Assembly: GCA_015231795.1 (NCBI GenBank) | Contig: JADGAX010000001.1 | Location: forward strand, 248,001 to 312,000 | Direction of reading: 5' to 3' | From: Alphaproteobacteria bacterium | Lineage (GTDB): Bacteria > Pseudomonadota > Alphaproteobacteria > Rhodospirillales > WMHbin7 | DNA length: 64,000 nt | Shown: positions 59,487 through 61,335 of the stretch, one piece after another | Layout of the letters: each line of letters begins with the position of its first letter | Position numbering within the stretch: position 1 is the first letter of the stretch | Position numbers and translations under genes: made by a program | The notes under the pieces: model-generated | Seen by the model: the letters and a program-made list of their open reading frames with translations, nothing else | Databases searched by the model: none | What the model was told of the DNA's origin: nothing

Positions 59487-60587
59487 GTGAAATTATTGGC
59501 ATCATCGCTTTTCATGCTGGCCTTGCTGGCAACCCCCAGCCTCGCCGCCGATTTGATCGAGGAAAAGGTTGACCTGCCCGTCGCCTTCTCGGGCGAGACG
59601 CTGACCCTGGAAGCCCTGATCATAAGGCCCGACGATGATCGGCCCCATCCTTTGGCGATCATCAATCATGGGTCGCCGCGCAATGTTGACGCCCGCGCCG
59701 AAATGAGTCCGCGTTCCTACCGCGCCCAGGCGCGTGAATTCGCCCGCCGCGGTTGGGTGACGGTGGCTTTCATGCGCCGCGGCTATGGCGAATCCGATGG
59801 CGATTATATGGAAGGTTACGGCAAATGCTCGTCGCCGGATTATGAAACGGCCGGGCGCAATTCAGCCGACGATCTGCGCGCCGTGATCAAGGCGATGCGA
59901 AAGAAAGATTATGTCGATGGATCGAAGGTGATCAGCATCGGCCAATCCGCCGGCGGTTTCGCCACCGTGGCCCTGACCGCCGATCCCCCGCCCGGCCTGA
60001 TCGCCGCCATCAATTTCGCGGGCGGTCGCGGCTCGACAAAACCGGATGAAGTTTGCGGCCCCAGCCAGTTGTTGAAGGCCTTTGCCGCCTACGGCAGATC
60101 GTCTCGCATTCCCATGCTTTGGGTTTACGCCGAGAATGATCACTTCTTCGGCCCCACCCTGGCCCAGAGCTTCCACCGGGCCTTCGTCGATGCCGGGGGC
60201 CAAGCCCAATTCGTGGCCGCCCCAAGTTTCGCCGCTGACGGCCACTTCTTGTTTTCCGAAAAGGGAGCGCCGACCTGGACGCGCTATGTGGACGATTTTC
60301 TAGGTCAACAAGCCCAGCTTGGCCCCCGCCAAGCGCCGCCACCAGCCAGGGCCGAGCGCAAGGTCTCGTTTCCCAAGGGACTGGGGGAAAAGGGCAAGGA
60401 AGCCTTCTTGAAATATCTTGAGGCCAACGATCACAAGGCCTTCGTCATGTCGTCTGATGGTCATTATGGTTGGAGAACAGGGCGCAAGGACATCGAGACC
60501 GCCATCGAGGAAGCCACTGACTATTGCCGCGAAAACACTCGGAAACGCTGCTATACCGTGATGATCGACAATGACCCGGTCGAGTGA
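59487..60587 (+). CDS. Secreted alpha/beta hydrolase (dienelactone hydrolase-like) with C-terminal extension
   Basis: A 366-residue periplasmic hydrolase. Signal peptide MKLLASSLFMLALLATPSLA, then NHGSPRN as oxyanion region, and the nucleophile elbow SIGQSAGG (Ser154). The C-terminal ~70 residues, beyond the hydrolase fold, hold AFVMSSDGHYGWRTG, CRENTRKRC and YTVMIDNDPVE, a small domain seen in other alphaproteobacterial secreted proteins. The GTG start has GAGGACG upstream. The substrate is unknown. Confidence 0.88.
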   Translation: MKLLASSLFMLALLATPSLAADLIEEKVDLPVAFSGETLTLEALIIRPDDDRPHPLAIINHGSPRNVDARAEMSPRSYRAQAREFARRGWVTVAFMRRGYGESDGDYMEGYGKCSSPDYETAGRNSADDLRAVIKAMRKKDYVDGSKVISIGQSAGGFATVALTADPPPGLIAAINFAGGRGSTKPDEVCGPSQLLKAFAAYGRSSRIPMLWVYAENDHFFGPTLAQSFHRAFVDAGGQAQFVAAPSFAADGHFLFSEKGAPTWTRYVDDFLGQQAQLGPRQAPPPARAERKVSFPKGLGEKGKEAFLKYLEANDHKAFVMSSDGHYGWRTGRKDIETAIEEATDYCRENTRKRCYTVMIDNDPVE

Positions 60588-60605
60588 ACCCGGATGGAAT
60601 TCCCC

Positions 60606-60619
60606 TTGATTTTGATCAA
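60606..60619 (+). promoter_or_regulatory. Perfect FNR/FixK-type box
   Basis: TTGATTTTGATCAA matches the FNR/ANR/FixK consensus TTGAT-N4-ATCAA exactly. A TATTCA -10-like hexamer at 60640-60645 puts the box near -41, the class II activation position, for a start site near 60653. The 5' leader to the next ATG at 60704 is about 50 bases. Confidence 0.75.
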
Positions 60620-60703
60620 TTAAAAACTTGCAACCCTCTTATTCATGTAAGGTTCAGGTAAGGTTTGGCATAATTGAGCCTTCGACAACTTGAGGGGGCC
60701 GTC

Positions 60704-60832
60704 ATGCCGTTACCGATCGTTATGTTCTTCCATGCCCTTCCCGGAATTGCCGCAGCATCACTGGCGGTTGCCGCCTTGTGGATCGTCTCCAAACTTGGCA
60801 TGCGGGCTTACGCAAGTCTGGCCCACAAGTAG
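60704..60832 (+). CDS. 42-residue membrane microprotein, likely FNR-regulated
   Basis: An ORF of 42 codons with a strong TTGAGGGGGCC ribosome-binding site about six bases upstream. The product starts MPLPIVMFFH. One hydrophobic helix (ALPGIAAASLAVAALWIVSKL, about residues 11-31) is followed by a basic tail ending SLAHK. It is not recognised as CcoQ, CcoS or CydX. It lies between the hydrolase and ratA, behind the FNR box. Confidence 0.7.
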   Translation: MPLPIVMFFHALPGIAAASLAVAALWIVSKLGMRAYASLAHK

Positions 60833-60903
60833 AGAAGAAATGGAAGGAAGGTTGCCCACGCCGTCTATGCCAAGAAGCGGCAATGACGTGATGGGCGCCC
60901 TTC

Positions 60904-61335
60904 CTATCTTCCATACATCTGCCTAGCCCTGCGCTCGAAACTGAGCACCATGCGGCCGACAGCTTCGTTGAAGACGGCGCCCATCAGCCCTTGCAGCAGG
61001 CGCGACTTGAATTCGAAATCGATATAGAAATCGATGCGCACGCCCTTTGCAACCGGCTCGAAAATCCAGTGATTGTTCAGATGCTTGAAGGGGCCTTCGG
61101 TATAGGTGATGTCCAGGCGGTGGGGCCGGTTCATGGTCACTTGCGAGCGGTAGCGCTCGCGCACCATTTTGAAGCCCGCCCAGACGTCGGCGACCAGGGT
61201 CTTGCCGTCGTTCGAAAGCACCTTGGCGTCGATCACCCAGGGCAGGAATTCAGGATAGCGTTCGACGTCCAGCACCAAGTCATACATCTGCTCGCAGCTA
61301 TAAGGCAGCGTGCGCTTTTCGGCATGGGTCGGCAT
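60904..61335 (-). CDS. ratA: RatA/Coq10-like START-domain protein
   Basis: A 143-residue SRPBCC/START protein of the RatA/Coq10 family. It shows THAEKRTLPYSCEQMYDLVLDVERYPEFLPWV, AGFKMVRERYRSQVTMN and FEFKSRLLQGLMGAVFNEAV. The Coq10 role, binding ubiquinone or its precursors, is more likely than a toxin role. The ATG overlaps the lipA stop (TGATG). Confidence 0.9.
   Translation of the reverse strand: MPTHAEKRTLPYSCEQMYDLVLDVERYPEFLPWVIDAKVLSNDGKTLVADVWAGFKMVRERYRSQVTMNRPHRLDITYTEGPFKHLNNHWIFEPVAKGVRIDFYIDFEFKSRLLQGLMGAVFNEAVGRMVLSFERRARQMYGR

Follow-up and report, generated by a model that had tools for sequence, protein, structure and literature searches.

The question raised by this locus is which signal switches on a gene of only 42 codons lying between an alpha/beta hydrolase gene and a START-type gene, and what its small membrane product may do. 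The window, i.e., the whole stretch of 64,000 nucleotides that was analyzed (assembly GCA_015231795.1, an alphaproteobacterium), had received a first-pass annotation which proposed that an FNR-type palindrome controls the gene and that the peptide may attach to a respiratory complex. The locus was compared with that of Rhodospirillaceae bacterium LM-1, a member of the same genus (named Ca. Magneticavibrio boulderlitore in PMC12724286), and with two related loci of Magnetovibrio blakemorei MV-1, which belongs to another family. The features discussed below are as follows.

59487-60587, plus strand: alpha/beta hydrolase gene, upstream neighbor, syntenic in LM-1; missing together with the microprotein gene from the site in the congener G001.
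60606-60619, no strand assigned: exact FNR/FixK-type palindrome TTGATTTTGATCAA (TTGAT-N4-ATCAA), species-specific and not conserved.
60640-60645, plus strand: TATTCA, the −10 element of the first-pass annotation, overlapping the first repeat unit; CCTTCA in LM-1.
60642-60674, plus strand: conserved promoter common to four genes, with the 11-nt units TTCATGTAAGG / TTCAGGTAAGG / TTTGGCATAAT.
60669-60674, plus strand: probable −10 element CATAAT; CACAAT in LM-1, CACAAT and CATAAT in MV-1.
60692-60698, plus strand: ribosome-binding site GAGGGGG, 5 nt before the ATG at 60704, identical in LM-1.
60704-60832, plus strand: microprotein gene, 42 codons, with an LM-1 orthologue, MV-1 paralogues, a dN/dS of about 0.36 and a predicted helix.
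60904-61335, minus strand: START-type (Polyketide_cyc) gene, convergent downstream neighbor.

The open reading frame encodes the 42-aa product MPLPIVMFFHALPGIAAASLAVAALWIVSKLGMRAYASLAHK, and the strong ribosome-binding site described before was found in front of it. An extension to 52 aa is possible from an in-frame TTG at 60674; the ATG at 60704 was preferred because it is the start that lines up with the relatives. Residues 1-29 of the peptide contain no K, R, D or E (H10 is present), and the hydrophobic helix covers about residues 5-29. It is followed by a basic C-terminal tail with K30, R34 and K42, besides H41. The first K/R/D/E stands at residue 30 in three of the four family members and at residue 34 in the fourth. 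A structure model computed from the four-sequence alignment consisted of one helix comprising residues 4-40 (mean pLDDT 82, pTM 0.41). Sequence and model thus bear out the earlier description of one hydrophobic helix with a basic tail, and the microprotein is probably a single-pass membrane peptide of N-out/C-in topology.

The orthologue in LM-1 is syntenic, with the hydrolase and START genes on either side as in the window, and has neither a frameshift nor a stop; its product shows 71% identity with the window protein when 41 aa are aligned and 69% when 42 are. The two paralogues in MV-1 are 43 and 47 aa long, with 36% and 34% identity to the window protein. The family comprises four known members of 42-47 aa in three genomes, with M1, L3, P4, A11-L12-P13, A17-A18, W26, K30 and L39-A40 invariant. 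Each of the six pairwise comparisons scored higher than any of 2000 shuffles, and this held when the hydrophobic part and the tail were shuffled separately. Between the window and LM-1 the changes at codon positions 1, 2 and 3 number 6, 10 and 18, and the NG86 method gave a dS of 0.68 and a dN of 0.24 (ratio about 0.36), next to a dN/dS of 0.23 for the upstream hydrolase. According to the first-pass annotation, equal synonymous and nonsynonymous change would speak against its proposal; an excess of synonymous change was found (Fisher p 0.011-0.020, on rounded counts). On these comparative sequence grounds the ORF is a genuine gene, short and easily missed as had been suspected, and its sequence supports purifying selection. 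Codons 1-8 (60704-60727) are unchanged versus LM-1 and more conserved than the remaining gene.

Even with an E-value limit of 10, the window protein matched no family in Pfam or NCBIfam, in line with the earlier statement that it belongs to no recognizable family. When all four members were scanned against both libraries at E ≤1, only weak matches of single members appeared (best E 0.027 and 0.091), including PF05552 and NF038351 (cytochrome oxidase small assembly protein, E 0.091). In PHROGs, seven families were touched, each by one of the four members (best E 0.021). Four matches to solved structures (E 0.007-0.023) concerned viral gp41-type constructs over 15-17 residues and were taken as chance. 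A literature search on microproteins in magnetotactic bacteria found no report of the family, and among the matches listed for Magnetovibrio blakemorei, two-component systems and small proteins none was on the family by its title. The family appears to be absent from the searched libraries, and the four members add a microprotein family that these are missing.

Its distribution is narrow. A first scan gave matches at E ≤1 in 15 of 40 genomes; by later scans, just three of these (the window genome, LM-1 and MV-1) contain relatives. At the level of the order, matches at E ≤0.1 occurred in 68 of 297 genomes and those at E <1e-6 at only four places in three genomes. Matches in the class scan were obtained in 4 of 385 genomes (strong only in the window's own), and the scan of the MV-1 family gave a match in one of 18 genomes and no further member. 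Ten weak places (frames of 40-102 codons) were read by eye and showed no relative; neither plasmids nor viral contigs yielded one, the latter by pattern or by protein (72 candidates, 0 confirmed). Magnetochrome (PF18509) was matched in 42 of the 297 genomes (36 over the cut-off), all three carriers included, and the other 39 matching genomes (39 of the 294 non-carriers) contained no relative of the microprotein. Among the matches listed, the magnetochrome places lie on contigs other than those of the microprotein genes. A link to magnetosomes is weak since two of the three carriers are congeners.

The control region was analyzed by the same comparison. Identity between the window and LM-1 per 20 columns was 10, 10 and 9 from −121 to −61, versus 17, 16, 18 and 20 from −61 to +19, and the conservation starts at about the promoter box. 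The repeats read TATTCA-N5-GGTTCA(-N5-GGTTTG) with an 11-nt period, the first hexamer beginning at 60640; GGTTCA is separated from CATAAT by 12 nt, and the third repeat abuts the −10 element. All four promoters share TTCA-N6-GTTCA-N12-CAYAAT with AGGTT 3-4 nt after GTTCA. Written as hexamers this is nGTTCA-N5-(G/C)GTTCA, ending 12 nt before the −10 element and lying over the −35 region. The spacing from the promoter block to the ATG in the four genes is 29, 30, 38 and 38 nt. When genes of different genera were paired, the best match of 33 nt in each of the four pairs was the box itself, with 22, 21, 21 and 20 identities against shuffle maxima of 20, 19, 19 and 21 (60 shuffles each); the pair of LM-1 and the second MV-1 gene (20/33) thus falls below its shuffle maximum of 21. 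This block, at 60642-60674 between the palindrome and the gene, is the more striking feature and could not be recognized as conserved in the first-pass annotation. The TATTCA which that annotation took for a −10 element at class II spacing does exist, but the conserved CATAAT at 60669 contradicts the class II geometry: the transcription start deduced from it (about 60681) is about 27 nt further on. A scan of 60450-61000 for consensus (sigma-70) promoters found nothing and missed the proposed promoter as well.

By its geometry, the conserved switch is a putative tandem-repeat box of the response-regulator type, presumably resembling the tandem boxes of PmrA and QseB. The string of the presumed PreA/QseB box was found in the literature only in a primer near pmrB, and PMC2653508 does not define a PreA/QseB site. 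The PhoP box is a direct repeat of a hexamer with a 5-nt spacer and can overlap the −35 region (PMC3335776). The microprotein promoter likewise has a hexamer repeat with a 5-nt spacer over the −35 region, whereas its hexamer is nGTTCA instead of (T/G)GTTTA and its third repeat abuts the −10 element. With the hexamer different, it is the geometry that suggests a regulator of the OmpR/PhoP family.

The four promoters themselves served to define the block, so their recovery by a scan says nothing about its specificity; what counts is the other matches. A loose pattern occurred at 13 places in 12 of the 297 genomes of the order, four of them these genes, and its reversed control at seven. At the nine other places no relative follows; eight are situated inside frames of at least 187 codons, and the ninth (L088) immediately precedes the ATG of an ORF resembling an aldo/keto reductase. 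A longer pattern including the ATG gave 15 places in 13 of the 297 genomes, again with the four genes, and 0 for the reversed control; the frames starting at the ATG of the 11 others are no relatives. The full pattern was found in 11 stretches of genome_contigs (84,980 species by its description; the window's own records may be left out): three family members (one of LM-1, two of MV-1), six similar Acinetobacter stretches inside opposite-strand frames of 489-905 codons, one in Ardenticatenaceae and one in a Rhodoferax MAG. In the latter (L099:2720-2752) the pattern stands 29 nt before a 460-aa ORF resembling by eye a ferric-reductase-like membrane oxidoreductase. Outside the family, none of the places from the three pattern scans is followed by a relative. 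The core repeat GTTCAN{3,4}AGGTT occurred at ten places in the two congeners, two of these places being at the microprotein genes; seven others fall in frames of at least 441 codons, and the last lies 6 nt ahead of where a 167-aa ORF may start. These places in the two congeners showed no regulon apart from the microproteins, and a shared regulator is without support from a wider regulon because the remaining core-repeat places are mostly in long frames.

The reading which we favor, with moderate confidence, is that of a two-component-regulated, single-pass inner-membrane microprotein which binds a membrane partner, maybe with an added FNR input. An OmpR/PhoP-family response regulator would bind the nGTTCA-N5-GGTTCA direct repeat over the −35 region and turn on transcription from the CAYAAT −10 element. 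Once inserted, the peptide would expose its short N-terminus, which is free of charge, on the outer side and keep the basic tail on the cytoplasmic side, and its helix would dock on a membrane protein, ALP and W26-K30 being the likely contact. The partner, whose activity would be changed by docking as with other two-component-induced membrane microproteins, would most likely be a sensor kinase in a negative feedback, or an envelope enzyme. The window species may in addition have gained a second input responding to low oxygen, through the FNR-type box upstream. A known example of such a peptide is PmrR, a small membrane peptide induced by PmrA; as far as its description goes, the present one is similar, a hydrophobic microprotein putatively induced by a response regulator.

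The closest parallel is MgrB, a membrane inhibitor of PhoQ of 47 aa that belongs to the PhoP regulon of enterobacteria; it needs W20 in its helix for PhoQ binding and two periplasmic cysteines (C28 and C39) for PhoQ inhibition (PMC8404706). Both peptides are single-pass, of similar size and carry a tryptophan in the helix, and MgrB is known to be in a direct-repeat-box regulon. In contrast to MgrB, none of the four microprotein members has a cysteine, the predicted topology is opposite with the basic tail C-terminal, and the carriers are Alphaproteobacteria instead of enterobacteria; the likeness is one of description. The family is not MgrB, because it lacks cysteine and has the opposite charge bias, although by analogy it may work like MgrB. 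An unlikely extension would be a functional MgrB counterpart outside the enterobacteria with reversed topology, so far seen only in magnetotactic Alphaproteobacteria and tuning its own envelope- or metal-sensing kinase. If the kinase feedback is true, the peptide would offer a compact handle on a sensory circuit in magnetotactic bacteria, including MV-1 with its two paralogues.

The palindrome itself was found as annotated. It is the sole exact FNR-type site in the 64-kb window, in which shuffling leaves 0.04 such sites on average (at least one in 4 of 100 shuffles), and the window genome contains 10 exact sites versus 0 for the reversed control pattern. The conservation search that had been proposed gave a divided answer: the ORF is kept in LM-1 and MV-1, the FNR box upstream of it is not. 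In the window TTGA-N6-TCAA stands 98 nt before the ATG, whereas a search of 400 nt in front of the LM-1 gene and of each MV-1 gene found no such site; the LM-1 counterpart is TTGA-N5-TCAA, with a spacing one base short, and the box sits in a stretch diverged to background in LM-1. These upstream regions rule out FNR as the conserved regulator, and FNR control as the defining feature of the gene, as first proposed, was not borne out; an FNR input would be at most species-specific. The locus illustrates how a textbook FNR palindrome can lead astray if the switch that is actually conserved is a tandem repeat of a less familiar kind.

Eight of the ten exact FNR sites of the window genome recur, by eye, as identical 14-mers anywhere in LM-1. 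For four of these eight, the longest frame around the site has at most 134 codons, and one of the four is near a ccoN-like gene, whereas the other four lie inside frames of at least 190 codons; the contrast between the recurring sites and the window box, which does not recur, is softened because coding could keep four of the eight. Among the sites near genes named by eye are G000:C6:193986-193999 (L162; ccoN-like), C3:7621-7634 (L158; molybdopterin-oxidoreductase-like), C2:536444-536457 (L157; cytochrome-c-like) and C4:10817-10830 (L160; YeeE-like transporter), some of which have another gene on the opposite side.

A dual control, in which the response-regulator box is ancestral and the FNR site, as a recent acquisition, activates from a distal class I position at about −68, is possible but rather doubtful. 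It would account for an exact site that is improbable by chance in the window and whose center (60612.5) lies about 68 nt before the deduced start. The site is, however, present in one of three genomes, and the near-palindrome of LM-1 is wrongly spaced. Class I sites of FNR tend to lie at −61.5, −71.5 and similar positions, which also speaks against about −68.

A model in which FNR/FixK, bound at a class II site, switches on the gene when oxygen is low, and in which the peptide serves a respiratory complex as a small subunit similar to CcoQ or CydX, is improbable. The rarity of exact palindromes in the window, their ten occurrences in the genome, with one near the ccoN-like gene, and the touch of one member in four on NF038351 speak for it. 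Size and the one hydrophobic helix are also shared with CydX, CcoQ and other oxidase microsubunits, but unlike these the microprotein has no significant family match (NF038351 and PF05552 being weak and from one member each), no recognized oxidase neighbor and no conserved FNR box; neither the box nor TATTCA is conserved in LM-1, even though most exact sites recur there. No oxidase gene was recognized (mostly by eye) near the four copies in the neighborhoods covered, which were 56-64 kb of the window, about 6.5 kb of LM-1 and 8 kb at each MV-1 locus. One MV-1 copy is divergent from an operon (L076:3932-6737) of a NAD/FAD/2Fe-2S reductase, a 196-aa protein without a Pfam match and a multihaem cytochrome c, which would fit a respiratory subunit; this operon was not recognized beside the other three copies. 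The neighbors differ between the window and LM-1 on the one side and both MV-1 loci on the other, and therefore no partner is indicated. Almost no evidence is left for attachment to a respiratory complex, and the interpretation of the first-pass annotation was partly supported.

The downstream gene is convergent and therefore not co-transcribed with the microprotein gene, which also makes a leader peptide or a promoter-proximal operon subunit unlikely. The congener G001 (87% complete) keeps the START gene and the upstream Cys-rich gene, with hydrolase and microprotein genes missing between them; its site (L134:2016-2557) contains two small ORFs resembling by eye an antitoxin-toxin pair of the Phd/RelE type. 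The hydrolase/microprotein site is thus variable. In the congener G002 (81% complete) the contig ends at the microprotein site.

A role as the hydrophobic toxin in a toxin-antitoxin pair of type I, or as a stress peptide that damages membranes, would agree with the small size, hydrophobicity, basic tail, sparse distribution and two copies in MV-1, yet it is quite improbable. Neither an antisense promoter nor a terminator was found in 60450-61000 (where the sigma-70 consensus scan also misses the proposed promoter), no Rfam family reached its gathering score in 60300-61000, and there was no unusual RNA fold of leader and gene (z 0.58). The gene is, moreover, solitary with an elaborate conserved promoter. 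It is highly improbable that the region encodes no protein and represents the conserved promoter and 5′ part of a small RNA, its frame being open by chance: identity to LM-1 is complete from −1 to +19 (20/20) and codons 1-8 are unchanged, but the changes are biased to third codon positions, the MV-1 relatives keep the amino acids at the start, ALP, W and K, and there is no RNA fold signal.

Between the microprotein gene and the START gene an inverted repeat, ATGGAAGGAAGG ... CCTTCCTATCTTCCAT, was noticed by eye at 60840-60914. Most of it is covered by a sub-threshold Rfam match (60839-60911, E 0.37), and it is perhaps a two-way terminator without a T run.
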